64,000 nucleotides of DNA from a virus, in the IMG/VR virus record IMGVR_UViG_3300007352_000013, positions 1 to 64,000 of that record, one strand, 5' to 3'. The notes under the pieces are model-generated. The model ran no database searches, was not told the origin of the DNA, and saw only the letters and a program-made list of their open reading frames with translations. The translations under genes were made by a program, and so were the position numbers. This document shows, piece after piece, positions 13,485 through 58,804 of the stretch. The first letter of the stretch is position 1, and each line of letters begins with the position of its first letter.

Positions 13485-14411
13485 ATGAACGATATAATTA
13501 AAATTCATAATATAGTAGATGAATGCGAAGTTTCTTATCCTTATAAATCGCTCATCTTTCCGGGCGGTGAACCCCACGTTCAGGTAGATCCACAATATAT
13601 AGAAGGAAAGAATATATGGGTAGACGCAAGAATCTGTAGCGCCGATGGATTTATGACACTTTTATGTCTGCTTGACGCCATAAGTGAGTGTGGGCCGGAG
13701 AGGTTGGGATTATTTCTTCCTTACTTTCCTGGCGCTCGTCAAGATAGATACGAAAATGGAAGTGCGTTCTCCCTACAAATTTACGGTCGAGCATTAAGGC
13801 GTTATAGTCTGCATTCTATTTTGGTTCTTGATCCTCATTCAGAAATGTTAAAGGCCATTGTAGATGTTGATGCCTTAGAATCGCATACAGTAGCTTTACC
13901 ACTAGATTCAAAATATAGGGGAATTATAGCTCCGGATAATGGCGCTTTGAGTAGATGTGCAAAATTTGCCACAGCAGCAAAAATAGATTTGATATTTACG
14001 GCTAGAAAGGTAAGAAATCCAGAAACAGGAAAATTAAGTAACTTCTACATAAATATGGAAAATCGTAATGGCCGATATCTTATTGTGGATGATATCTGTG
14101 ACGGCGGTGGAACCTTCATTGGTCTAGCCGATGAAATTAAACGCCAAAGTCCAAATTGTATTCTAGACTTATGGGTTTCTCATGGAATATTTTCTAAAGG
14201 GTTTTATGAATTAGATAAAAGATTCGGAAAGATAATTACAACAGATTCTTTTCCAAGAGAACAACAACCGGGAGAATGGGTATACCATTCTTACACAGAC
14301 AGAAAATATTCTGGTTATGGTCCTATCCAAGATATACTAATAGAATATAGAACGCTTTGGTATCATGCGGCTCACTTTATGAAGGAAAGGCTTTCTTATG
14401 CACAAATCTGA
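13485..14411 (+). CDS. Ribose-phosphate pyrophosphokinase-like enzyme (Prs or Adps)
   Basis: A 308-residue protein, about the length of bacterial Prs (315). Landmarks in order: PYFPGARQDR near 80 (ATP-binding flexible loop), LDPHSEM near 112, a PDNGALSR strand-turn near 150 and the PRPP loop YLIVDDICDGGGTF near 200. Prs makes PRPP from ribose 5-phosphate and ATP. A phage Prs homologue, Adps, instead pyrophosphorylates ADP-ribose as the first step of the NARP1 NAD+ rebuilding pathway. The NAMPT-like gene 0.3 kb downstream makes the second role attractive. It overlaps the next gene by 14 bases. Confidence 0.85.
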   Translation: MNDIIKIHNIVDECEVSYPYKSLIFPGGEPHVQVDPQYIEGKNIWVDARICSADGFMTLLCLLDAISECGPERLGLFLPYFPGARQDRYENGSAFSLQIYGRALRRYSLHSILVLDPHSEMLKAIVDVDALESHTVALPLDSKYRGIIAPDNGALSRCAKFATAAKIDLIFTARKVRNPETGKLSNFYINMENRNGRYLIVDDICDGGGTFIGLADEIKRQSPNCILDLWVSHGIFSKGFYELDKRFGKIITTDSFPREQQPGEWVYHSYTDRKYSGYGPIQDILIEYRTLWYHAAHFMKERLSYAQI

Positions 14412-14718
14412 TTTTAATAAATGGTTTGAATTGTTTAAAAAACTAAGTGATGAAAGAGAAAGAGATAAGAAAGAAAACATTAGAATTATGTCAGAGTTTG
14501 AACCAGATAATATTCTGGAAATTCCGGAACATTCATTAAATAATGTAAAGCTTGGATTTTGGAGTTCACCCAACGGTGTTATAATGATAGAAGCAAATGC
14601 CAAAGGCGAATTTGATCCAAGAAAAGCCAAATTCTTTTCAAAAGAAATTATAAACTCTCTAGTAGCAGCAAGTGAAAAACAACCTAACGCAATACTTCTT
14701 CCATTGGAGATAGAATAA
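14398..14718 (+). CDS. Hypothetical protein between Prs-like and NAMPT-like genes
   Basis: 106 residues, with GGAAAGG upstream of the ATG inside the Prs-like gene; its stop shares a base with the NAMPT-like start (TAATG). Residues 1-40 form a charged helix. The C-terminal half has a GVIMIEANAKGEF strand and an FSKEIINSLVAAS helix. No family recognised. Its position suggests a role in NAD metabolism or simple co-transcription. Confidence 0.65.
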   Translation: MHKSDFNKWFELFKKLSDERERDKKENIRIMSEFEPDNILEIPEHSLNNVKLGFWSSPNGVIMIEANAKGEFDPRKAKFFSKEIINSLVAASEKQPNAILLPLEIE

Positions 14719-16178
14719 TGAATATGAATCCAATGCTAATGATTGACGGCTATAAATTGGATCATCGTCGTCAATATCCAGTAGGAACACAAAGGGTCTA
14801 TTCTAATTGGACTCCACGTTCATGCAGGATAGAAGGAGAAACACATTCAACAATGTTCGGTCTTCAATATTTTCTTAAGAGATTCATGGGCGATTTAATG
14901 CAAGAATATTTCTTTTGCGTTAATCGCGCCAAAATTGAGAAACAATATCAATCAAGAATTGATGGTTATCTTGGACACAATGCAATTGGCGTTAAGCATA
15001 TTGCAGCGCTTCATGAACTTGGGTATGTTCCTCTTAAATTCTGTGCAATTCCAGAAGGTACTAGGACTCCACTGCGTGTACCCCAAATCGTGGTCGAGAA
15101 TACAATAGATGACTTTTTTTGGTTGCCAAATTATTTTGAAACTCTCATGTCTTCAACGATTTGGAAACCAACAACTTCTGCTAATCTTGCTTTCCGATTC
15201 CGTAAAATGCTCAACAAATGGGCAGAAATAACTGGTGGAAATAAAGACTTTGTGCAATGGCAAGGTCATGACTTCTCTTTCCGTGGAATGAGTGGTGTTG
15301 AAGATGCAATGGTATCTGGGGCGGGTCACTTGCTTTCATTTACAGGAACAGATACAATTCCTGCTATTGAATTCATTGAAGAATATTATAGCGGAAATAA
15401 CGGACTTATCGGTGGGTCAGTAGCAGCTACAGAACATTCAGTTATGTGCGCCAACGGTGAAGATGGCGAAATGCAAACATTTGACCATTTGCTAGATTTG
15501 TATCCAAATGGTATCGTTTCTATAGTTTCGGATACATGGAATCTATGGCGTGTGATTACACATATCTTGCCAGCGCGTAAAGAACGAATTATGGCGAGAC
15601 AAGGAAAGTTGGTTGTGCGGCCCGATTCTGGTGATCCAGTGCTTATCCTTTGCGGTGATAATAATGCTTCTGAAGAGATTGTAAAGAGGGGTGTTATTAG
15701 GGGTTTGCACGATGTATTTGGTGGCGAGAAAAATGCTAATGGGTTTATTGAACTCGATCCACACATTGGAGCCATCTATGGGGATGCAATTAATATCGAA
15801 AGAGGAGAACAAATTTCACGAAAACTTCATAGTTTCGGATTTGCATCAACAAATTGTGTGTATGGCATTGGAAGTTATAGTTACCAGCTAACAACAAGAG
15901 ATGTTTACGGTCTAGCAATGAAAGCAACTTGGGCGCAAGTTAATGGTGTCGGTAGAGATCTATTCAAAAAGCCTATTACAGATAGTGGCATGAAGATTTC
16001 TGCCAAAGGTAGACTTTCTGTAGTGAAAGAGAATGGTAGGTATTTCTGCATAAACCAAGCAACTCCAGAAATAGAGGCTCAATCGGTACTTACTCCGGTT
16101 TGGGTTGATGGTAAATTTATTAGGACACAATCGTTCAAGAATGTAAGAGAAACTTTATGGAATCCGGAGAATCTATAA
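14718..16178 (+). CDS. nadV: Nicotinamide phosphoribosyltransferase-like enzyme
   Basis: 486 residues, close to full-length NAMPT (about 490). Recognisable segments: an N-terminal YKLDHRRQYP, FRGMSGVEDA (about 195), GTDTIPAIEF (about 213), VVRPDSGDPV (about 298), a GIGSYSYQLTTRD segment (about 390) and a KPITDSGMK stretch (about 425). NAMPT joins nicotinamide to PRPP to make NMN. The phage homologue Namat joins it to pyrophosphorylated ADP-ribose to give NAD+ directly. Translationally coupled on both sides (TAATG). Expression may be high, since its codons look less AT-biased than its neighbours. Confidence 0.9.
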   Translation: MNMNPMLMIDGYKLDHRRQYPVGTQRVYSNWTPRSCRIEGETHSTMFGLQYFLKRFMGDLMQEYFFCVNRAKIEKQYQSRIDGYLGHNAIGVKHIAALHELGYVPLKFCAIPEGTRTPLRVPQIVVENTIDDFFWLPNYFETLMSSTIWKPTTSANLAFRFRKMLNKWAEITGGNKDFVQWQGHDFSFRGMSGVEDAMVSGAGHLLSFTGTDTIPAIEFIEEYYSGNNGLIGGSVAATEHSVMCANGEDGEMQTFDHLLDLYPNGIVSIVSDTWNLWRVITHILPARKERIMARQGKLVVRPDSGDPVLILCGDNNASEEIVKRGVIRGLHDVFGGEKNANGFIELDPHIGAIYGDAINIERGEQISRKLHSFGFASTNCVYGIGSYSYQLTTRDVYGLAMKATWAQVNGVGRDLFKKPITDSGMKISAKGRLSVVKENGRYFCINQATPEIEAQSVLTPVWVDGKFIRTQSFKNVRETLWNPENL

Positions 16179-23421: not shown

Positions 23422-23637
23422 ATGATTCAAGTAGGTTCACGAGTAGAGTTAAGATGTGTAACTAACGATAACCACGAAGCGATATATTCAACTTGTGAAA
23501 TTGTAGCAATGTCTCCGAAAACAATAGAGGTGAAATATTGCTCAAAAGTAACACAAGAAGGCGATAAATCTTTTCCTGTCTTTAAAAGAGATCTAATTAG
23601 TCGTGATAAGATTAAGTATTTGTCGGAACGTTGTTGA
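23422..23637 (+). CDS. Small beta-rich protein, 71 aa
   Basis: AATTAGGAGATTATTA precedes the ATG. It is a strand-rich protein (MIQVGSRVELRCV, TIEVKYCSKV) of SH3-like appearance. Function unknown. Confidence 0.65.
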   Translation: MIQVGSRVELRCVTNDNHEAIYSTCEIVAMSPKTIEVKYCSKVTQEGDKSFPVFKRDLISRDKIKYLSERC

Positions 23638-23638
23638 T

Positions 23639-24139
23639 ATGAAAACTTTAGTTATAATAGACATGCAAGATTTCTATCTTGAAGAAGGATCTATTGTTGG
23701 TTCTAAAGATTCTCTTGAGATATCAATATTAAAGTCTAATATAGTATCACTTATCCAAAAATTTATGGATAATAATTATCCAATAATTTTAGTAGAGTAC
23801 GGTGGTTCTGGAAGAACAAATAAATATATATTGGATGCGATATCTGGTTATGACAATTGTTATAATGCAACAAAATATAAATGCGACGGTAGTGCCGAAA
23901 TTATTGAAATAATCAATACCCTCAATCTTCCAAAGAACATAAATGTATGCGGTGTGTATAGTGATCAGTGCGTTAAAGACAGTGTAATAGGTTTACTCAA
24001 AAAGGATAGTTCAATAGAAATAGAATTTCATGAAGAATGTGTATGGCCATTTACTAATGATCTAAACGTAGGATATGGAATAGATCATAGGGTAAAAAGT
24101 TTGTGTTTTTCGAAAACAGGGGTGGTCCCTGTTTTCTAG
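23639..24139 (+). CDS. Isochorismatase/nicotinamidase-family hydrolase
   Basis: 166 residues, ATG overlapping the previous stop region. It has the cysteine-hydrolase triad: Asp in LVIIDMQDF (near 8), Lys in a TKYKCDGS segment (near 82) and Cys in GVYSDQCVKDS (near 112). The family includes nicotinamidase, isochorismatase and other amidases. Nicotinamidase needs extra metal ligands that I cannot confirm here. A nicotinamide substrate would fit the NAD genes at 13.5-16.2 kb but would oppose salvage by NAMPT, so another amide substrate is as likely. The stop codon sits in a strong hairpin (24112-24136). Confidence 0.8.
   Translation: MKTLVIIDMQDFYLEEGSIVGSKDSLEISILKSNIVSLIQKFMDNNYPIILVEYGGSGRTNKYILDAISGYDNCYNATKYKCDGSAEIIEIINTLNLPKNINVCGVYSDQCVKDSVIGLLKKDSSIEIEFHEECVWPFTNDLNVGYGIDHRVKSLCFSKTGVVPVF
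24112..24136 (+). terminator. Perfect hairpin at the end of the hydrolase gene
   Basis: GAAAACAGGG (24112-24121) pairs with CCCTGTTTTC (24127-24136) around a five-base loop, ending against the TAG stop and followed by TAGTTTCTCTTT. It acts either as a terminator or as an RNA processing/stability element just upstream of the Ubl gene. Confidence 0.65.
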
Positions 24140-24162: not shown

Positions 24163-24399
24163 ATGAATAAGGTTACTTTTGTTACGAACAGTGGTGAAGG
24201 TCTTCCTCGTACCGTAGAAATTCGTGACGATGTTCTCGTCTCCGAATTCCTTTCGGTAAATTTTGAAGGCGATCTTGACGATTATCAGTTCAGTATCCGT
24301 CGAGATGGTCAATCTCATACGGCAGACATGGATGAAGTTCTTCAGAACGGGGATCGTCTAGTGGCTGCACCTCGTCGTGTCAAGGGCGAGCTTAACTAA
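24163..24399 (+). CDS. Ubiquitin-like (beta-grasp) protein
   Basis: 78 residues. The strong site CGAAGGAGTAGTGT precedes the ATG. The order KVTFVTNSG strand, RTVEIRDDVLVSEFL strand-helix, a middle strand and the ending NGDRLVAAPRRVKGELN matches ThiS/MoaD/ubiquitin-like proteins, where L-x-x-G-D-x-(V/L) precedes the functional tail. The tail has a single Gly (RRVKG) then ELN, so conjugation would need removal of three residues, a job for the JAMM peptidase encoded next door. The codons are clearly less AT-rich than those of the E2, JAMM and E1 genes, suggesting high expression. It lies between two strong hairpins. Confidence 0.85.
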   Translation: MNKVTFVTNSGEGLPRTVEIRDDVLVSEFLSVNFEGDLDDYQFSIRRDGQSHTADMDEVLQNGDRLVAAPRRVKGELN

Positions 24400-24415
24400 T
24401 AAAAGATGGTTGAAT

Positions 24416-24446
24416 GGGGGGTGGGTTTGAATAAAGCCCATCCCCC
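24416..24446 (+). terminator. GC-rich hairpin after the Ubl gene
   Basis: GGGGGGTGGG (24416-24425) pairs with CCCATCCCCC (24437-24446), ten pairs with one G-T wobble. A seven-T run follows only at 24459-24465, so termination may be partial, allowing read-through to the E2, JAMM and E1 genes at a lower level. Confidence 0.7.
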
Positions 24447-24496
24447 AAATGCTGTAGATTTTTTTAATCTAACACAAATAGATGGAGAAAGTCCAT

Positions 24497-25618
24497 ATGG
24501 ATAGTAAAAAAATAATAAAAATAGCTTCTATTATTCAAAATACTTTAAAAACAGGAGATGAACATTTAGTAACTTATAATTCAGGAAGACTTACTGGACT
24601 GAATAATAAAATCAAAGATCTCCATGCACAAATAAATAAATGTCTAGAAAATGATTTTGAAGGCGCAAGAAAAAGTATAATATTACAAATAAATACCTGT
24701 ATAACAAAAGCAGAAGATTTTCTAAAAGCAGCAAAATCAAATATAAATCAAGAAACATATGTTCCATCTATTGAAGATTTAATAAATGAAATTACAGCAG
24801 TTAAAAATTCTTTTCCATCTCTAGAATTTAGAAATGGAGAATTAATTATAACGTCAGATACAATTATTTTACAGGAAATAGATTTTGGAAAATTTAAAAT
24901 CAAAATAGACTTAGAAAATTTAAAAGAAAAACCAGATAGATTCCTAAAAATAGATGCGGTTAGTCCAAATTATTCTAGTGATGGTGAATATGTTCATCCT
25001 CATATAGATAATCATATGCTTTGTTGTGGAGAGGGTTATGATATCTTAATAGATGCAGCGAGACAAGGAAGGATTGAGGATCTTTTTAAACTAGTGCTCG
25101 CGACATTAAATACTTATAATGAAGGTTTTGCGTATTGTGAATTAGAAAATTGGGAAGGAAAACATTGTTCTTCTTGCGGCGATCAATACGATGAAGATGA
25201 GGCGTTTTATTGCACTAAATGTGATAGTAATTTATGTGGTAGTTGTTCGTATCGTTGTGAAAATTGTGATGAATATTTTTGTGAAGAACATGTAAGCACA
25301 CCGTGTAGTTGTTGCGAAAAAAAATACTGTGATTATTGTAGTGATAATCATACGTCTACATGTGAAAAGTGTGATAAAACATTCTGTGATGATTGTTCGG
25401 CAATTTGTAATGAATGCGAAAATCGTTTATGTCAAGATTGCCTTGCGATATGCGATCATTGCTCTAATGAATTTTGTGTGAAATGCCTAAAGTCTTGCGA
25501 AGAATGTAAAGAAAGTATTTGCCCAGGATGCAGCTACGAATGTAGTAATTGTAATAAAAAATATTGCGAAGATTGCTACGACGAAGAATCTTGTAATTTA
25601 AACAAGGTTAAAGCTTAA
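24497..25618 (+). CDS. E2-like protein fused to a multi-zinc-finger (E3-like) tail
   Basis: 373 residues; GGAGAAAGTCC fixes ATG 24497. Residues 1-85 are helical, probably coiled coil. About 125-222 look like the bacterial UBC (E2-like) fold: strands, then HPHI at 167-170 and CCGEG at 176-180, the position of the E2 catalytic Cys after an HPH motif, then a long helix. Residues 224-365 hold about twenty C-x2-C knuckles in tandem, like RING, B-box or treble-clef fingers. An E2 that carries its own finger array could select targets without a separate E3. The gene is followed directly by the JAMM gene. The E2 assignment rests on motif and context. Confidence 0.75.
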   Translation: MDSKKIIKIASIIQNTLKTGDEHLVTYNSGRLTGLNNKIKDLHAQINKCLENDFEGARKSIILQINTCITKAEDFLKAAKSNINQETYVPSIEDLINEITAVKNSFPSLEFRNGELIITSDTIILQEIDFGKFKIKIDLENLKEKPDRFLKIDAVSPNYSSDGEYVHPHIDNHMLCCGEGYDILIDAARQGRIEDLFKLVLATLNTYNEGFAYCELENWEGKHCSSCGDQYDEDEAFYCTKCDSNLCGSCSYRCENCDEYFCEEHVSTPCSCCEKKYCDYCSDNHTSTCEKCDKTFCDDCSAICNECENRLCQDCLAICDHCSNEFCVKCLKSCEECKESICPGCSYECSNCNKKYCEDCYDEESCNLNKVKA

Positions 25619-25630
25619 TTGGAGAAGGCT

Positions 25631-26578
25631 ATGGAATTTTTGAAAAAATCAATGAATAGAAGTGGGGTACTAAGATTCACGCCATATGCTTGGGCAAAAC
25701 TCGTTTTTATGAGAGATGCTGGTGATACAGAGGTTGGTGGTTATGGAATCAATGAAACGGACGACCCACTTTTGATTACCGATTTCATTTTGGTAAAGCA
25801 AAATTGTAGTGGAGTTTCTGTTGATCTTGATGAACAAGATTCTTTGGCATTCGCAGAAGAAATGACAGATAAAGGTTTTAGTCCTTGGCAATATGGGACT
25901 TGGATACACACCCATCCGGGTAATTCGCCAAATCCAAGCGAAGCGGACGAAGATAATTTCAGAGATAATTTTTCTATAGCTGATTGCTCGATATTTTTTA
26001 TCTTGGCGAAAGGAGGACAAAACTATACGAGGATGCGATATAATGTGTCGCCGGGAATAGATGTTGATATTAAATCTATTATAGACTTTCATGTTCCGTT
26101 TAGAGCGAGTGATAAAGAGTCTTGGAAAAAGGAATATGACGAAAAAGTTAATGTTAGTAAATGTGTGTATACCGGAAATATGTTCAAGAAAGAAACTGAT
26201 TTACTAGAAAGAATTTCTAGTTCAAAAAAAGACAAATCTCTTTTTGAAAGAAAAGAAGAATATGATTTTCAAGACTGGTCAACGATGTCTACTAATGACC
26301 ATGATGAAGAAGAGGATGAAAGCGCCTTCGTATTTGAAGAGGGTGATTCAATCTTTTTCTATGTAGATGATGAAGAAGAATATTATGAATTCAAAAAAGA
26401 TCTAGAAAGATTTTACGATGAAAAAGGAAAAAGAATAAGACATCCTAAAAATGAATGGATGGAGATAATAGCATCGTTTTTATCAAAACAAGATAATAAT
26501 ATAGAAGACGTTTCTGAACAATTGGAAAAAGAAATGGAGAAAGAATATGCAGACATTATTGACGGACAGAGCAATTAG
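25631..26578 (+). CDS. JAMM/MPN+ metalloprotease (deubiquitinase-like)
   Basis: 315 residues; TTGGAGAAGGCT fixes ATG 25631. The full JAMM signature is present: Glu34 in TEVGG and HTHP with H93, H95, S103 and D106 in exact H-x-H-x7-S-x2-D spacing. JAMM enzymes use zinc to cut isopeptide bonds or trim precursor tails. Here the likely tasks are removing ELN from the Ubl and releasing Ubl from targets. A C-terminal region of about 150 residues is acidic (EEEDES, DDEEEYYEF). It overlaps the E1 gene by 32 bases, a sign of coupled translation. Confidence 0.92.
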   Translation: MEFLKKSMNRSGVLRFTPYAWAKLVFMRDAGDTEVGGYGINETDDPLLITDFILVKQNCSGVSVDLDEQDSLAFAEEMTDKGFSPWQYGTWIHTHPGNSPNPSEADEDNFRDNFSIADCSIFFILAKGGQNYTRMRYNVSPGIDVDIKSIIDFHVPFRASDKESWKKEYDEKVNVSKCVYTGNMFKKETDLLERISSSKKDKSLFERKEEYDFQDWSTMSTNDHDEEEDESAFVFEEGDSIFFYVDDEEEYYEFKKDLERFYDEKGKRIRHPKNEWMEIIASFLSKQDNNIEDVSEQLEKEMEKEYADIIDGQSN

Positions 26579-27206
26579 ACAAAGAGATTTGGTTCCAGAA
26601 GAAAAACTCAAAAATACAAAAGTAACTGTTGTTGGATGTGGTGCTGGTGGAAGACAAGTTAGCCTAACACTTGCAGAAATTGGTGTTCCAGATATACAAC
26701 TTATAGATTTTGATACAGTAGAAGTCGTAAATTTGGCTACGCAAGGCTTTTTTGAAAGTCAGTTGGGCAATTTTAAAGTTGATGCAGTTGCCGAAGTGTG
26801 TAAGCAAATAAATTCAGAAATTAAAATTAAAACAGTAAGAAGCAAATTTAGACCGAATATGTTTGATGGTGGAGTGATATTCTCTTGTGTAGATTCTATG
26901 TCTGGTAGAAAACAGATTTTTGAAGAAACAGATGGCCTTAGAGATCTTTTTATAGATAGCAGAACTGCCGCTGAATACTCAAGAATTTTTGTTGTGCATG
27001 ATGACGATAGCGCCGAACATTATAAGGAAAGTCTTTATACGGATGAAGAGGCTCATCAAGAGGGTTGTACGAGTAAGATGACAATTTATTCGGCAAAGGT
27101 TTCGGCTAATCTAAGAGTAGCACAATTCGTCAAGTGGTTGAGGGGTTGTGATTTAGATAAGGAAATTGAGATTAATCTTTTAACTAATGAAATGAGGGCT
27201 ATATGA
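26547..27206 (+). CDS. E1/ThiF-like adenylyltransferase
   Basis: 219 residues, ATG inside the JAMM gene behind AATGGAGAAAGAAT. Rossmann loop GCGAGG at 30-35, DFD at 54-56, N62 and Q66 of the D-x-D-x-V-x3-N-x3-Q pattern, K78, and CVD at 114-116. GCTSK at 173-177 looks like the E1 catalytic Cys-Thr motif in the crossover loop, so the enzyme probably adenylates the Ubl tail and then forms a thioester before passing it to the E2-like Cys. It lacks extra E1 domains, as in bacterial ThiF/MoeB-size enzymes. It ends in ATGA with the next gene. Confidence 0.9.
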   Translation: MQTLLTDRAIRQRDLVPEEKLKNTKVTVVGCGAGGRQVSLTLAEIGVPDIQLIDFDTVEVVNLATQGFFESQLGNFKVDAVAEVCKQINSEIKIKTVRSKFRPNMFDGGVIFSCVDSMSGRKQIFEETDGLRDLFIDSRTAAEYSRIFVVHDDDSAEHYKESLYTDEEAHQEGCTSKMTIYSAKVSANLRVAQFVKWLRGCDLDKEIEINLLTNEMRAI

Positions 27207-27884: not shown

Positions 27885-28366
27885 GATTGATAAGAAGATT
27901 CCATGACTTATGGTATTGGATAAAATGTCGTTTGTGGTATAAATACAATGTTTTAAAAATAAAAACTCTACCCCCAACATGGAACGATAGGGATAATATT
28001 TTAGTCCATGCAATGTTCCAGATTCTAGAAGATTTTGTGAAGAAAGAAGTAATAAATGGTAACATAGATTGGGATTACGATGAAGGGCATAGGTATACCA
28101 GAGCTAAAATGGACGAATTACTTAATTGGTTCCACAATGTCTATTTAAAATTTGATGAATTCGATGGTCTTGAATTAGACGAAATAAAATGGGAAGATAG
28201 ATTTTATCCAAAAGAAGAAGGATCTGATTTTATTGAAATGAAGCCTTCATCAGAGAATGATAGAAAATGTTATGCTATAGCACATGAAAGAGAATTACAA
28301 ATAAGAAAAGATTTGAATAAAAAATTAAAAGAAATTATTGATATTAAGGATTATTTGTGGACATAA
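27869..28366 (+). CDS. Hypothetical protein, 165 aa
   Basis: GGGGAAATTTTTT sets ATG 27869, overlapping the membrane protein by 16 bases. A basic aromatic N-terminus (MRLIRRFHDLWYWIK) is followed by a long acidic middle and charged helices. Similar proteins with LPPTWxDRDxxLxHAxFxxLxxFVxxE occur in other large phages, function unknown. Confidence 0.65.
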   Translation: MVKPMRLIRRFHDLWYWIKCRLWYKYNVLKIKTLPPTWNDRDNILVHAMFQILEDFVKKEVINGNIDWDYDEGHRYTRAKMDELLNWFHNVYLKFDEFDGLELDEIKWEDRFYPKEEGSDFIEMKPSSENDRKCYAIAHERELQIRKDLNKKLKEIIDIKDYLWT

Positions 28367-28368
28367 AT

Positions 28369-29205
28369 ATGAACGATATATTAACAGAACTTATATTGCA
28401 AAACAAAATTAATCCTCCACATTGGATGGACAGTTCCACACAATATATATGTATGACTGGTTCCCATGCATATGGTTTTGCTACAGAATTTTCCGATATT
28501 GATTTATATGGGTTTTGTATTCCACCCATAGAATACCTATTACCTCATACTGCGGGTCATATAGAGGGATTTGGTAGACAGATAAATGGATTCGATCAAT
28601 TTCAGCAAGAAGGTATAGAGCATGACGGTAAAGTGTATGATGTTACGATATACAATATAGCAAAATTTTTCCAACTTTGTATGGAAAATAATCCAAATAT
28701 GATTGATTGTTTATTCGTACCAAGGGACTGTATTGTGCGGTCAACATCAATAGGCGACAATGTTTTCTTTAATAGAAGCAAGTTCCTCCATAAAGGTGCA
28801 TTTTGGAAATTTACTGGATATGCAGCAGCCCAGCTTAAGAAAATAGAAAATAAAAAACCAGAAGGTAAAAGAAAGATTATGGTAGATAAATTCGGTTTCG
28901 ATACAAAATACGCATCCCATCTATATCGTCTTGCAAATGAATGTGAACAAATTCTTACAACTGGAGATCTGAACTTAAGACAAGCATCGTCGCAGATGGT
29001 ATTGATAAGGGATGGTAAGATTCCATTAAAAGACCTAAAGGATTGGTTTGCTGAAAAGGAAGTTGAGTTAAAACAAATTTACGATAATACCGAAGTGGTT
29101 CCCCACGGACCAGATGAAGAAAAAATTAAAACATTACTTATAAAATGTATAGAAATGTATCATGGTAGACTAGAAAAATTTACATTTGGATGTAGAAATG
29201 GATAA
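28369..29205 (+). CDS. Predicted nucleotidyltransferase (Pol beta superfamily)
   Basis: 278 residues, starting three bases after the previous stop. Near residue 25 MTGSHAYGFATEFSDIDLYGF supplies the G-S and D-x-D metal motifs. The following YDVTIYNIAKFFQLCMENNPNMID and the helical C-terminal half match the long YcgL-type predicted nucleotidyltransferases seen in phages. The target is unknown. Confidence 0.8.
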   Translation: MNDILTELILQNKINPPHWMDSSTQYICMTGSHAYGFATEFSDIDLYGFCIPPIEYLLPHTAGHIEGFGRQINGFDQFQQEGIEHDGKVYDVTIYNIAKFFQLCMENNPNMIDCLFVPRDCIVRSTSIGDNVFFNRSKFLHKGAFWKFTGYAAAQLKKIENKKPEGKRKIMVDKFGFDTKYASHLYRLANECEQILTTGDLNLRQASSQMVLIRDGKIPLKDLKDWFAEKEVELKQIYDNTEVVPHGPDEEKIKTLLIKCIEMYHGRLEKFTFGCRNG

Positions 29206-46757: not shown

Positions 46758-47136
46758 ATATGGTTGTACTATAGCTTGTATGGCGATGGTTTTAGGTAAA
46801 AAGTATTTCGAAATGAGACAATTGCTTCTGGAAAACGGTTTTTTAAAAATAAGTATCGAACCAGAATATATTGGTTACTTCGAGGATGAAATCCCAATAA
46901 TATTATCTAAATTTGAAATTAAATCAAAATATATTCCATTCGACGGATTAAATAAATTACAAAATAATTGTATATTATCGTTAATTAGAAGTGAACCAGA
47001 CAATAGAGGATATCCATTATGGAAACATTCAGTTGTATATGATACCAAAAACAAGAAAATACTAGATCCTGCAAATCAGATTAATAATTTGGAAAAATGG
47101 CGAATAAACGTAGAATATTGTTTGGAAATAGCATGA
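46723..47136 (+). CDS. Papain-like cysteine peptidase (C39-like)
   Basis: 137 residues. QQDKYGCTIACMAMVLGKKY near residue 9 has the Q-x5-C-x3-C active-site layout of C39-type peptidases, and WKHSVVYD (near 105) with DPAN about 15 residues later gives the His and Asp/Asn. These enzymes cut after double-Gly leaders or process peptides, so a link to ubiquitin-like tails is conceivable but not supported by position. Overlaps both neighbours. Confidence 0.75.
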   Translation: MQELKLVEQQDKYGCTIACMAMVLGKKYFEMRQLLLENGFLKISIEPEYIGYFEDEIPIILSKFEIKSKYIPFDGLNKLQNNCILSLIRSEPDNRGYPLWKHSVVYDTKNKKILDPANQINNLEKWRINVEYCLEIA

Positions 47137-49019
47137 GAAAACTAGCTAATATTTTAGACTTATCACATATTAAAAATAAAAGATTCATAATCATTGGAGA
47201 CCAACATGGCTGTTACGATCAATTATTAAATCTTCTCACTAAATGCAATTACAATAAAAAAACTGATGTAATAGTTGGTTGTGGTGATATGGTTGACCGT
47301 GGCGATAAGTCATACGAAGTTATTAAGTTCTTTCAACCAGATAATCCTCATGAAGAACACAATATTTTTACTGTCATGGGGAATCATGACGATAAATTTA
47401 AACGATATTTACTGGGAAATAAGATAACCATCGGCAAAGCACTGCAAAAGAGTGTCGATGAATTTTCAATTAAGTGTCCCGATTTAATAGAAAGAGCGTC
47501 AATAGCTCTATGGCTCAGTAATTTGCCACACATAATACGTTTACCAGATTTATTAGATAGGCCATGCTATATTGTCCACGCTGGTATTGATACTAGATAT
47601 CCAATTGATCAACAATCTCAAGAAACATGCATTTACATAAGAGGAATAAATCCTAAAAATTTCTTTGATGAAAGTGCTGGCCTTTGGTATGATACTCTTG
47701 ATGGATCATATTATATCTTGAGTGGTCACATAAGTTCTAAGGTAGTAAATCCCGTTCCTTGGAACTTTTCTCTAGACGCGGGTTGCGCATCTGGAGGTAA
47801 GTTAAGAGCGATGGTTATAGAAAATAACAAATATGAGATAGTAGAGGTTGATGGATTTATGAGAAATTGTCAAATTCCAAAAGAATTTAGAGTTCAAGAA
47901 GGAATAGATGGAGAAAGATTAATTACTCCGGGTTTCGCAGTTTCTAACTCTGCATGGAAAGCAGAAGAACATCTTTGGTTGCGTTCGCTTCATATAGATA
48001 AAAATGACGAAGTTATTTCTTGTGGATTCCCTAAGTTTTTTAACATGGGGGATGGACCTAGAGAATTCCAAATAACGCAAGATAATTTGCTTGACCAGAT
48101 AGATAGGGGTAAGCCGTTGCTTGCGACTCTAAAAATAGACGGCTCCCTTCTTATAAGGTTCGTCCATAATGGAAAAGTTAGATTTAGGACAAGGGGTTCA
48201 ATGGAAGTTGGCCTAGACAATAAAGACGAAATAGAGGAATTTCTTATAAAATATCCTAAACTAGCCGATCCAACTTATTATCCAACTATGTCTTTATTAT
48301 TTGAATGGACCAGCCCAAAAAATCAAATAGTTATAAAATACGATATACCAGAACTTACACTAGTAGGTGCTGTTCTTCACGGCAAAGGCATAAAATGGTA
48401 TGATACCGAATTTGATTTAATAGACATTAATGGTCTTAAAAAGATATCAGAAGATACAGGAATATCTTGTGTCCAGCATTTTAATTTGAAAAATAGAGTA
48501 GATGTATTAGATCTAATAGAAAAGTTAAAAGCAGAAAAAGAGATTGAAGGTTATGTAATAAGAATGAATAATGACCAAGATATGGTTAAGGTTAAAAGTG
48601 ATAATTATTTTATTCTGCATGCGTTGAAATCGAATCTGAACACAGAATCTCTTATTGATCTAATTTTATCTTGGAATTTAGGACATGACTATAATTTATT
48701 TAAAGAAAAATTCATAGCGTCATATGATTATGAAACTTGGACAGTTGCTTTACCCGCTGTTTCTTCAATATTCGATGGATTTAAGCATGCATCTAATATA
48801 GGATTACATATAAATAGATTCGTCGATGAAAATAGAGATAAACCAAGAAAAGAATTTGCTTTATTAGCGCAGCAAAAATATTCTGGAGAAAAGTTATCGG
48901 CATGTTTCTCTTTACTTGACAATAAACCAATACATAAAAATGCTTTCAAGACGTGGGTGCTTCAGAATTGTAAACAGTACGAATTTAGTATGTTTAAAAA
49001 GGAAATTAAAAATGACTAA
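47133..49019 (+). CDS. Metallophosphatase-RNA ligase (Rnl1-like) fusion
   Basis: 628 residues, ATGA overlap at the start. Residues 18-235: PPP/calcineurin-type phosphatase with GDQHG (22-26), GDMVDRG (51-57), GNHD (83-86), HAG (149-151) and SGHIS (197-201). Residues about 250-628: T4 Rnl1-type ligase with LRSLHI and KFFNMGD segments, motif I KIDG with Lys334 as AMP acceptor, RTRGSM, motif IV EGYVIRM and motif V VKVKSDNY. It should remove 3'/cyclic phosphates and seal RNA ends. T4 splits these tasks between Pnkp and Rnl1; here phosphatase and ligase share a chain and the kinase is separate (45065). Confidence 0.9.
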   Translation: MRKLANILDLSHIKNKRFIIIGDQHGCYDQLLNLLTKCNYNKKTDVIVGCGDMVDRGDKSYEVIKFFQPDNPHEEHNIFTVMGNHDDKFKRYLLGNKITIGKALQKSVDEFSIKCPDLIERASIALWLSNLPHIIRLPDLLDRPCYIVHAGIDTRYPIDQQSQETCIYIRGINPKNFFDESAGLWYDTLDGSYYILSGHISSKVVNPVPWNFSLDAGCASGGKLRAMVIENNKYEIVEVDGFMRNCQIPKEFRVQEGIDGERLITPGFAVSNSAWKAEEHLWLRSLHIDKNDEVISCGFPKFFNMGDGPREFQITQDNLLDQIDRGKPLLATLKIDGSLLIRFVHNGKVRFRTRGSMEVGLDNKDEIEEFLIKYPKLADPTYYPTMSLLFEWTSPKNQIVIKYDIPELTLVGAVLHGKGIKWYDTEFDLIDINGLKKISEDTGISCVQHFNLKNRVDVLDLIEKLKAEKEIEGYVIRMNNDQDMVKVKSDNYFILHALKSNLNTESLIDLILSWNLGHDYNLFKEKFIASYDYETWTVALPAVSSIFDGFKHASNIGLHINRFVDENRDKPRKEFALLAQQKYSGEKLSACFSLLDNKPIHKNAFKTWVLQNCKQYEFSMFKKEIKND

Positions 49020-51453: not shown

Positions 51454-52863
51454 ATGAATAAATTAAAAAATATTTTCAATGAAAATGGTTTGGTTATAGA
51501 TAAATCATTTGCAACTATTTCTAACAATTTTAGAAAACTCCCCAATTTCGTTTTCGATTATTTGTCATCTCAATTAATTCATGATTCAAATCCCGAAATT
51601 GGTATATCAAAAATAAATAAAATAATAGAAGAAAATTTTGTAGACTCCGATAAAAAAGAATTAGTTAAAAGTAGAATTAAGGAATTGGGAAGATATTCTT
51701 TTTTGGGAAATATTAGTTGCAGATTTGATCAAAATAAAAATGAATATTTTGCATCTGTAAATGTTTTGGAAGATAATAATATTAGAATAAGTCCTGATGT
51801 TTTAGAAAAATATGGAGATATACTATTAACAACAGGGTGTTATGGAAGTTTATTAATTGCTTTTGAACCATTTACATTAACTAAAAAGAAGAATTATCCA
51901 TTTATTATAATAGATTTTGTTCCATTTCAAATAATAGATATAAATATAGATTCATATATAGAAAAAAGAAAGAATTTTTCGACAGATGAATGGATAGACA
52001 TTATAATAAACAGTATCGGATTTAATCCAAATCTTCTAAATAGAGAACAAAAATTATTGTACATATGCAGACTAACTCCTTTTGTAGAATCTAATCTTAA
52101 TACGATAGAATTGGGAGGAACAGAAACTGCTAAGACACATATATACAGAAATCTTAGCCAATATGGTATATTGCTTTCAGGTTCTAATCCATCTATGGCA
52201 AGTCTATTTTATAATAAACTAAGAAGAACGGTCGGTATCCTTTGTAAAAAGGATTGCGTTATATTTGACGAGATATCTGGGACTAAATTCAACGATGAAG
52301 AATTGATAAATTCTCTTAAAGACTTTATGAATAGTGGAAAATTCTCAAGGGATAAAGTAGAATTAACTTCTGGATGTTCCGTTGTATTTATAGGAAATAT
52401 TGATACCGACACAAATAAACAAGAAGTAAAAAATTATTATCATCACCTATTTGTTCCTCTACCAGTTAAAATAAGGAATGATCGCGCCTTTCTAGATAGA
52501 ATTCATGCATTCTTACCCGGATGGAAACTACCAAGAATCTCTGTGTCTAGCCTATCTTCAGATTATGGATTCATGGCAGATTACATAAGTGAAATATTTC
52601 ATAGATTTAGAGATAAAGATTATTCTAGTATTATTAAATCTAAGATTAAATTTGATAACTCAAGTTTTAGAAATCAACAAGCTGTAACCAAACTTTGTTC
52701 TGCTCTCATTAAAATAATTTATCCAGATAAAAATATGACTGATGATGAATTAAAAGAAATTCTAAATATTTCTATTGACTTGAGGCAAAGGGTTGTTGAT
52801 CAATTAGGAATCATAGCACCTAGTGAATTCAAGGATATCAAAATAAAATGTTCAATAATTTAA
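51454..52863 (+). CDS. brxL: BrxL-like AAA+ protein lacking the Lon-like protease domain
   Basis: 469 residues. The N-terminal domain (LPNFVFDYLSSQLI, ELGRYSFLGNIS, GCYGSLLI) and ATPase core follow BREX protein BrxL in order: ELGGTETAKTHIYRNLS (219-235, Walker A position), SGSNPSMASLFYN, CVIFDEISG (268-276, Walker B), LKDFMNSGKFSRDK, SVVFIGNID and FLDRIHAFLPGWKLP (347-360). Full BrxL is about 660-690 residues with a C-terminal Lon-like domain, missing here. The Walker A reads GGTETAKT, with Ala in place of the last Gly before Lys. No other BREX genes (pglX, pglZ, brxC) are in the window. It could be an anti-BREX decoy, a captured helicase or a control factor. Confidence 0.85.
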   Translation: MNKLKNIFNENGLVIDKSFATISNNFRKLPNFVFDYLSSQLIHDSNPEIGISKINKIIEENFVDSDKKELVKSRIKELGRYSFLGNISCRFDQNKNEYFASVNVLEDNNIRISPDVLEKYGDILLTTGCYGSLLIAFEPFTLTKKKNYPFIIIDFVPFQIIDINIDSYIEKRKNFSTDEWIDIIINSIGFNPNLLNREQKLLYICRLTPFVESNLNTIELGGTETAKTHIYRNLSQYGILLSGSNPSMASLFYNKLRRTVGILCKKDCVIFDEISGTKFNDEELINSLKDFMNSGKFSRDKVELTSGCSVVFIGNIDTDTNKQEVKNYYHHLFVPLPVKIRNDRAFLDRIHAFLPGWKLPRISVSSLSSDYGFMADYISEIFHRFRDKDYSSIIKSKIKFDNSSFRNQQAVTKLCSALIKIIYPDKNMTDDELKEILNISIDLRQRVVDQLGIIAPSEFKDIKIKCSII

Positions 52864-57787: not shown

Positions 57788-57796
57788 GAGTTGTAC

Positions 57797-58804
57797 ATGT
57801 CTACATATGAATGTCCGGTGATCAAAATAAAGCTAGAGCCGCATCCAGATGCTAATTCTCTAAGCCTTGTTAAATATGGAAATTTTACTCTAGTTGTTAA
57901 GACGGCACAATGGAAAGACGGAGATCTTGCCGTTCATATTCCCGAAGACTATTGTGTTCCTGACACAGAGCAATTTGCTTTTCTTGGAAATAGTAAGAGA
58001 ATAAAACCGAAGAAATTCAGAGGAATTTGGTCTGATGGAATTTTAATAAAAGCACCAGACGGATTAGGTATTGGCGAAAATGCTATGGAAATTCTTGGTA
58101 TCAAAAGATATGATCCAGAAATTGAAATATCATTCAATAATGATAATGAGGCCGAACCTATTGGTAACTGGCCTAGGTATGATGTAGAAGGTTATAAGAA
58201 GTATGCTGATTGGTTTAATCTTGGAGAACAAGTAGTTTGTACCGAAAAAATTCATGGTGCTAGTGCGAGATTTGTTTATATTGAAAGTTATCATCATTTT
58301 CCAGAGCCAGACCCAAGAGATGGTAGTTCACCGATTGTCACTGGTAGGATGTATTGTGGTTCAAGAACTAATTGGAAGAAACAATCAGAAAAAGATCCTT
58401 GGTGGAAGGCTTTACAACAGAATCCTTGGATAGAAATATGGTGTAAAGCTAATCCGGGCTATGCGCTATATGGGGAAATATTTGGGCAAGTTCAAAACCT
58501 AAAATATGGTTGCGAACCGAATCAAATAAGGTTTGCTATCTTCGATATAAGACATGATAGGATTTGGCTAAATCACGATATAGCGAGAGATATGGGCCAC
58601 GGACTATTTTGGGTTCCAGAAATATACAGAGGTCCATTAGATCTTAATAGAATTTCTGAACTAATAGAGTGCGATAGCGTAGTAGGTGGTAAGGGTCATA
58701 TTATGGAAGGTTGTGTGATAAAGCCATTAATAGAAAGAGAATTACACGGCGGCGATAGAGTTCAGCTTAAACTTATAAGTAAGAGATATTTTAATGAAAA
58801 GTGA
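57797..58804 (+). CDS. RNA ligase with N-terminal OB-like domain
   Basis: 335 residues. Residues 1-110 form a strand-rich domain (IKIKLEPHPDANSLSLVKYGN resembles the EMAP/tRNA-binding OB opening). The ligase core has motif I KIHGASARF with Lys151, an YALYGEIFGQ motif III, EGCVIKP (motif IV) and VQLKLIS (motif V). The order matches the Deinococcus DraRnl (Rnl5) type, which seals 3'-OH/5'-P nicks in RNA strands. A second RNA ligase distinct from the Rnl1-type fusion at 47133. Confidence 0.87.
   Translation: MSTYECPVIKIKLEPHPDANSLSLVKYGNFTLVVKTAQWKDGDLAVHIPEDYCVPDTEQFAFLGNSKRIKPKKFRGIWSDGILIKAPDGLGIGENAMEILGIKRYDPEIEISFNNDNEAEPIGNWPRYDVEGYKKYADWFNLGEQVVCTEKIHGASARFVYIESYHHFPEPDPRDGSSPIVTGRMYCGSRTNWKKQSEKDPWWKALQQNPWIEIWCKANPGYALYGEIFGQVQNLKYGCEPNQIRFAIFDIRHDRIWLNHDIARDMGHGLFWVPEIYRGPLDLNRISELIECDSVVGGKGHIMEGCVIKPLIERELHGGDRVQLKLISKRYFNEK

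Follow-up and report, generated by a model that had tools for sequence, protein, structure and literature searches.

Positions 24163-27206 of the window, the 64,000-nt stretch of a 129,435-base IMG/VR virus record, hold four adjacent open reading frames (ORFs) on the plus strand. In order these encode a ubiquitin-like protein (Ubl), an E2-like protein, a JAMM metallopeptidase and an E1 (Table 1). The record is a genuine tailed phage, as shown by its genes for a tape-measure protein and for DnaB helicase, primase, DNA polymerase and ribonucleotide reductase. Each cassette gene is preceded by a good ribosome-binding site, and on this basis ATG 24497 and ATG 25631 are the probable starts of the E2 and JAMM genes. 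A sigma-70 promoter scan across the cassette region stayed at chance level. A preliminary description, made from the window's letters, had read these genes as a complete Ubl, E2, JAMM and E1 set in a phage. The four ORFs are where it placed them, their products show kinship to the respective families, and a second phage contig (L002) carries an orthologous cassette.

Table 1. Coordinates of the cassette genes and of features within them (window positions)
Feature	Position	Strand	Details
Ubl, 78 aa, beta-grasp modifier	24163..24399	+	Gly75, then a 3-residue tail (VKG followed by ELN)
G+C-rich hairpin, 14-bp stem, Ubl-E2 gap	24415..24447	+	-31.5 kcal/mol, z=-5.2 for the gap
E2-like protein, 373 aa	24497..25618	+	ORF open from ATG 24482; ribosome-binding site TGGAGAAAG
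E2 active-site motif H172-P-H-I-D-x4-C181	24995..25024	+	ORF numbering
16 C-x2-C motifs	25166..25594	+	spacing mostly alternating 8/7 (15-residue repeat); putative zinc-binding
JAMM metallopeptidase, 315 aa, variable C-terminal region	25631..26578	+	ORF open from TTG 25619; ribosome-binding site TTGGAGAAGG
JAMM motif H97-T-H-x7-S-x2-D110	25907..25948	+	
E1, 219 aa, single adenylation domain	26547..27206	+	catalytic-type Cys174, codon 27066-27068

The four genes and their products

The window E1 matches Pfam ThiF (E=6.8e-27) and contains GxGAGG, D54/D56 and C174, giving it the Rossmann-type ATP site and acceptor Cys of the E1/ThiF superfamily. G30, G32, D54, D56 and C174 are invariant in the family, in agreement with the GCGAGG, D-x-D and Cys-Thr motifs noted previously. 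A profile of E1s from cassettes with a Cys-rich, finger-type E2 has yeast ubiquitin E1 as its best PDB match (2.6e-21), with ubiquitin E1s ranking above ThiF. The cassette E1 is the only ThiF-family gene of the 129,435-base record and is 75% identical to that of L002.

Searched alone, the window JAMM matches Pfam Prok-JAB at E=8.6e-5, below the curated cut-off, while a 17-member JAMM profile matches Rpn11 at E=1.7e-12. The zinc-site residues E38, H97, H99, S107 and D110 are invariant in these 17 members, as defines JAMM/MPN+ proteases, so the exact H-x-H-x7-S-x2-D reported earlier stands. Identity to the L002 JAMM is 54%. In two relatives the H-x-H codons are interrupted by group I introns (Rfam RF00028; L041 5932-6168, E=1.6e-15; L065 6109-6321, E=9.3e-18), and the L041 insert carries an opposite-strand 260-aa ORF resembling a homing endonuclease. 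Group I introns favour conserved sites such as active-site motifs.

The window Ubl has no Pfam match by itself, while its family profile matches SAMP2 (4e-5) and Pfam ThiS is matched by 13 of 29 Ubl relatives (best 2.3e-7). Its AlphaFold2 (AF2) model (pLDDT 87) resembles ubiquitin, SUMO, MoaD and SAMP1 with a Foldseek probability of 1.00, despite which the E-values are modest (1.7e-3 to 1e-2). The Gly near the C-terminus, Gly75 in the window, is an invariant column among 20 short Ubls, and with the fold it places the protein among beta-grasp Ubls. The L002 orthologue is 68% identical. In most crAss-like and Flavobacterium phages a long tail follows this Gly, so processing would be needed there, presumably by the JAMM. 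The Ubl gene has a G+C content of 46% compared with 33% for the window, perhaps owing to high expression or another origin.

The gap between the Ubl and E2 genes contains a stable hairpin (Table 1). A comparable hairpin lies in the L002 gap (z=-4.4), and a hairpin with a T-run is found in this gap in L008 and in all four planctomycete loci tested. No T-run directly follows the window hairpin, which is why a terminator scan was silent on it. Possibly the hairpin is a partial terminator or mRNA end giving an excess of Ubl over the enzymes, and its position between Ubl and enzyme genes would suit a modifier required in surplus.

The E2-like protein consists of a helical N-terminal region, a core resembling the ubiquitin-conjugating (UBC) domain and a C-terminal Cys array, and is 34% identical to that of L002. 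H172, P173, C181 and G183 are invariant in 12 finger-type E2s, and across 45 E2s from all groups C181 is invariant with H172 and G183 each conserved in at least 90%. The finger-type E2s thus have the HPN-like motif and catalytic-type Cys of the UBC/E2 superfamily. The residue given earlier was C177, apparently counted from ATG 24497. This is the latter Cys of the CC pair, and it is the former that does not vary (C181 by ORF numbering, or C176 counted from that ATG). No Pfam E2 model matches any of the 45 members, and the family would be an addition to known E2s.

Assignment of the core comes from profile comparison. When the cores of 24 finger-type E2s are combined into a profile, it aligns over 114 columns with the well-known eukaryotic E2s UBE2D2, UBE2N and UBC9 (hhalign probability 78.7, E=1.7e-5). 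Its score is 36.1, and none of 100 column shuffles exceeds 18.5. HPH falls on HPN and C181 on C85 of UBE2D2, which backs the earlier reading of HPHI...CCG as lying at the catalytic position. The E2s form three groups, finger/HPH, HPY and crAss-like HSH. The finger profile matches those of the HPY (2.5e-8) and HSH (2e-5) groups at levels that shuffles do not reach, while the comparison of HPY with HSH is not significant. In one locus the Ubl and the active-type E2 are separated by another E2-like gene, which contains Cys and lacks the HPH...C site (L007 4973-5827).

The Cys array of the window E2 comprises 16 C-x2-C motifs, fewer than the approximately twenty of the preliminary description. Shuffles of the same residues contain 7.7 on average and at most 15 (2000 shuffles). 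Other finger-type phages have 14-18, and many related E2s have no such array. From its sequence, the array is possibly a substrate-binding or built-in E3-like part.

Taken together, the four genes probably provide the phage with a self-contained and reversible Ubl-conjugation pathway. The cassette, its conserved order, the catalytic residues and the kinship are sequence-based; from them we infer catalysis, processing, conjugation, direction of action and targets. The JAMM would trim the Ubl precursor after Gly75, and the E1 would adenylate this Gly and bind the Ubl through a thioester at Cys174. Next, the E2 Cys (C181) would receive the Ubl and attach it to substrate lysines, with the Cys array perhaps assisting in the binding of these substrates. 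The JAMM could also take the Ubl off again.

Several observations weigh against such a pathway. For the full-length E2, AF2 gives a model of moderate confidence (pLDDT 75) with a UBC-like order of elements, and Foldseek returns weak, non-significant matches to Ube2W and an RWD domain. Zinc-finger proteins dominate the Foldseek results for the full model, with no significant UBC match. A PDB sequence-profile search is convincing for the full E2 with zinc fingers only and gives no match for the core. The E2 assignment of the preliminary description is backed by the sequence profile, and the predicted structure has weak, non-significant matches of this type. Comparison of the crAss-group E2s with eukaryotic E2s yields nothing above shuffles, so their link to known E2s is transitive, via the finger group. 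Lastly, Cys174 of the E1 is also compatible with ThiF-type sulfur chemistry.

Two other explanations were considered. The weak structure match and the lack of a Pfam E2 match would suit an E2-like protein that is a catalytically dead scaffold, its Cys array being a separate nucleic-acid or metal-binding module. This is quite unlikely, since all 45 members, diverse as they are, keep Cys181, which aligns with C85 of UBE2D2. A sulfur-carrier pathway would instead combine a ThiS/CysO-like thiocarboxylate Ubl, charging by a ThiF-like E1 and release by the JAMM, for thio-modification of nucleotides or tRNA or for cofactor synthesis. The ThiS matches of 13 of 29 Ubls and the resemblance of the single-domain E1 to ThiF/MoeB speak for it, and operons of JAMM, ThiS-like and E1 genes with roles in sulfur metabolism are known (PMC1779556). 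However, the cassette includes a conserved E2-like gene with an invariant Cys and near-invariant His, and the finger-E1 profile is closer to ubiquitin E1s than to ThiF. In the loci read, neither a rhodanese nor a cysteine desulfurase nor any other sulfur enzyme was noticed beside the cassette. We consider a sulfur carrier very improbable.

Distribution in phages and Planctomycetota

No viral-contig or phage relatives emerged from single-sequence searches with the Ubl, E2 and JAMM, and the one find of the single-protein searches was L002. Searching viral contigs with an E1 profile revealed 169 relatives; 80 were retained, and iterated profiles brought the E1-bearing records analysed to 85. The JAMM gene lies directly 5' of E1 in 77 of the 85. 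Seven of the remaining eight loci are cut off just upstream of E1; the eighth is that of the Xanthomonas jumbo phage PhiXhv-12, in which a JAMM is absent from the whole 228-kb genome. This phage encodes a Ubl ending in GG, an 892-aa E2-like protein with Cys-rich ends and an E1 (L006 1778-5654). An ORF of at least 180 aa is found directly upstream of the JAMM in 70 loci, and 66 of these ORFs have an H-x-x...C-x-G/D E2-like motif, preceded in most cases by a Ubl. A search for relatives in plasmids gave no match.

The cassette is also present in cultured phages. In Bacteroides phage crAss001 it runs from gp79, a Ubl that extends well beyond KIKSG, through gp78 (E2-like protein) and gp77 (JAMM) to gp76 (E1). 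Further named members are DAC15/DAC17, the PhiCrAssBcn isolates and Flavobacterium psychrophilum phages. Depositors annotated the cassette genes of named phages as 'thiamine biosynthesis protein', 'metalloprotease domain' or hypothetical, and PHROGs lists them as unknown, so all four gene families would be re-annotated. As the cassette is orthologous in L002 and the same order recurs in dozens of phages, the arrangement is more than chance. The set is therefore widespread among phages and not peculiar to this one. It appears to have been established in phages for a long time, rather than captured once and recently, and, judged from gene content, ubiquitin-type tagging looks like a common phage function.

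Close relatives of the window E1 were also found on genome contigs from metagenome-assembled genomes of Planctomycetota (one titled Actinomycetes), in one case on a 2.9-Mb contig. These loci (L091-L103, L111-L118) have the same four genes in the same order, with E1s about 40-46% identical, and no obvious phage genes were seen in the flanks read. Their E2s carry 9-10 C-x2-C motifs compared with 16 in the window phage. An E2-core profile detected finger cassettes in 9 of 294 sampled Planctomycetota genomes, with up to six copies each. The finger array is thus not phage-only, and a phage-borne set with fingers is not unique in having them. In a quick E1 tree the finger clade has a support of 99, and the planctomycete sequences cluster shallowly in a single group (91), next to phage branches that go deeper. 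This shape fits transfer from phage to host, with sampling for the tree seeded from phage sequences. The set had also been thought undescribed, and no description of a phage-encoded Ubl cassette was found in the literature searched; preprints and most subscription papers lay outside the search, leaving priority uncertain.

Relation to known systems

Bil (BilABCD) is alike in having four genes for a Ubl, an E2, a JAMM and a separate E1, with a JAMM that processes the Ubl precursor. Its defining features, taken from a review (PMC11354881), are an ISG15-like Ubl of two domains, an E2 with a CEHH motif, and an E1 made of an inactive and an active adenylation half plus a Cys domain. In contrast to BilA, with its two tandem Ub-like domains, the window Ubl has one domain in 78 aa. 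The 219-aa E1 has a single adenylation domain whereas BilD has an inactive and an active one and a Cys domain. BilB has CEHH downstream of the Cys whereas the window E2 has HPH upstream of it, and the E2-core alignment contains no conserved Glu/His set at +6/+8/+13 from the Cys. Despite the shared functions, identity with Bil was rejected as the features of BilA, BilB and BilD are lacking.

Type II CBASS Cap2/Cap3 was likewise rejected, as the window E1 and E2 are separate ORFs and the Cap3 model scores 20 bits against a cut-off of 200. The nucleotidyltransferase two genes downstream is RlaP, with no match to the CD-NTase of CBASS. Operon type 6d (Iyer et al. 2006), which we take to be PRTRC, resembles the cassette in uniting Ubl, E2-like, JAB and E1 genes in one operon. 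It was rejected given that the window E1 scores 34 bits against the PRTRC_ThiF cut-off of 145 and the window E2 has an upstream HPH. E2s of type 6d have no upstream His and do have a downstream His, and their operons have an additional gene for a helical protein as well as a JAB-N domain (PMC1779556). Type 6e/Bub has a JAB-E1 fusion and a Cys-less E2-like domain; it was rejected as the window JAMM and E1 are separate and the E2 Cys is invariant. The definitions of the four systems were drawn from PMC11354881 and PMC1779556.

The Caldiarchaeum-type E1/E2/RING/Rpn11 cluster is also a complete cascade, whose Rpn11 is matched by the window JAMM and whose ubiquitin by the window Ubl. Its E3 is a separate RING protein, whereas no separate E3 gene was seen in the window, only the Cys array on the E2. 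A Ubl and a JAB are further combined in lambda-type phages as TAPI and TAPK, which are tail-assembly genes without E1 or E2 (PMC1779556).

Gene neighbourhood and possible targets

In crAss-like phages the cassette has a fixed place between a primase (upstream) and a uracil-DNA glycosylase (UDG), and in HPY-type phages a Sak4-like annealing protein lies downstream. Replication or recombination genes therefore neighbour it in two of the three phage groups. The repeated primase, UDG and Sak4 neighbours favour a role in replication or recombination over defence tagging. The most likely targets of the Ubl would be phage or host DNA replication and recombination proteins, and we tentatively propose that the cassette acts in these processes. 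Against this, the window cassette is neighboured by an isochorismatase, the RlaP nucleotidyltransferase and unknowns, with no replication genes, so the idea rests on the other clades.

The preliminary description had raised the tagging of host defence proteins, which the neighbours in two of the three groups do not bear out. More broadly, counter-defence would involve either tagging of host immune proteins by the phage or stripping by the JAMM of host Ubl conjugates made by related cassettes. Such cassettes do exist in bacterial chromosomes, and the window also has candidate counter-defence genes in NAMPT with PRPP synthase, a BrxL homologue and RNA-repair genes. The cassette is, however, kept across phages of very different hosts and linked to replication genes, and a pure JAMM antagonist would need no Ubl, E1 or E2 of its own. 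Counter-defence is thus conceivable but not favoured.

Superinfection exclusion, the Bil-like tagging of virion proteins of co-infecting phages, is rather unlikely. The four functions are shared with Bil, which acts against phages, and the planctomycete finger cassettes are patchy and multicopy, as accessory defence genes often are. Conversely, the crAss-like cassette is fixed among replication genes and not in an accessory spot, and by the features tested it is not Bil. A role outside replication or recombination, counter-defence and action on competing phages is unlikely.

Known bacterial Ubl-conjugation systems are mostly anti-phage. A conserved, apparently complete pathway inside phages, among them the abundant, culturable crAss-like ones, reverses this picture and raises the question of what phages tag, and why. 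It also bears on where ubiquitin-type cascades diversified. One speculative scenario is a Ubl-conjugation core that is ancient in large phage lineages, including crAss-like phages, and regulates replication or recombination, with the finger version of Planctomycetota acquired from phages.

Further genes were recorded in these phages. An isochorismatase-family gene adjoins the 5' side of the Ubl in both closest phages (window 23603-24139, L002 5155-5622). The RNA-repair set of the window consists of the RlaP nucleotidyltransferase (28357-29205) and RNA-ligase-like genes (47097-49019 and 57791-58804). The BrxL homologue lies at 51454-52863 (Pfam BrxL_ATPase 2.7e-109, BrxL_N 3.1e-21). Ribose-phosphate pyrophosphokinase and nicotinamide phosphoribosyltransferase genes adjoin each other at 13485-16178 as an NAD+ salvage pair, possibly for counter-defence. 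In another case, a DNA polymerase of one PHROG family is split into two ORFs approximately 13.7 kb apart (L087 14878-17196 and L088 10890-12647), at record positions of about 78.9-81.2 kb and 94.9-96.6 kb, respectively.

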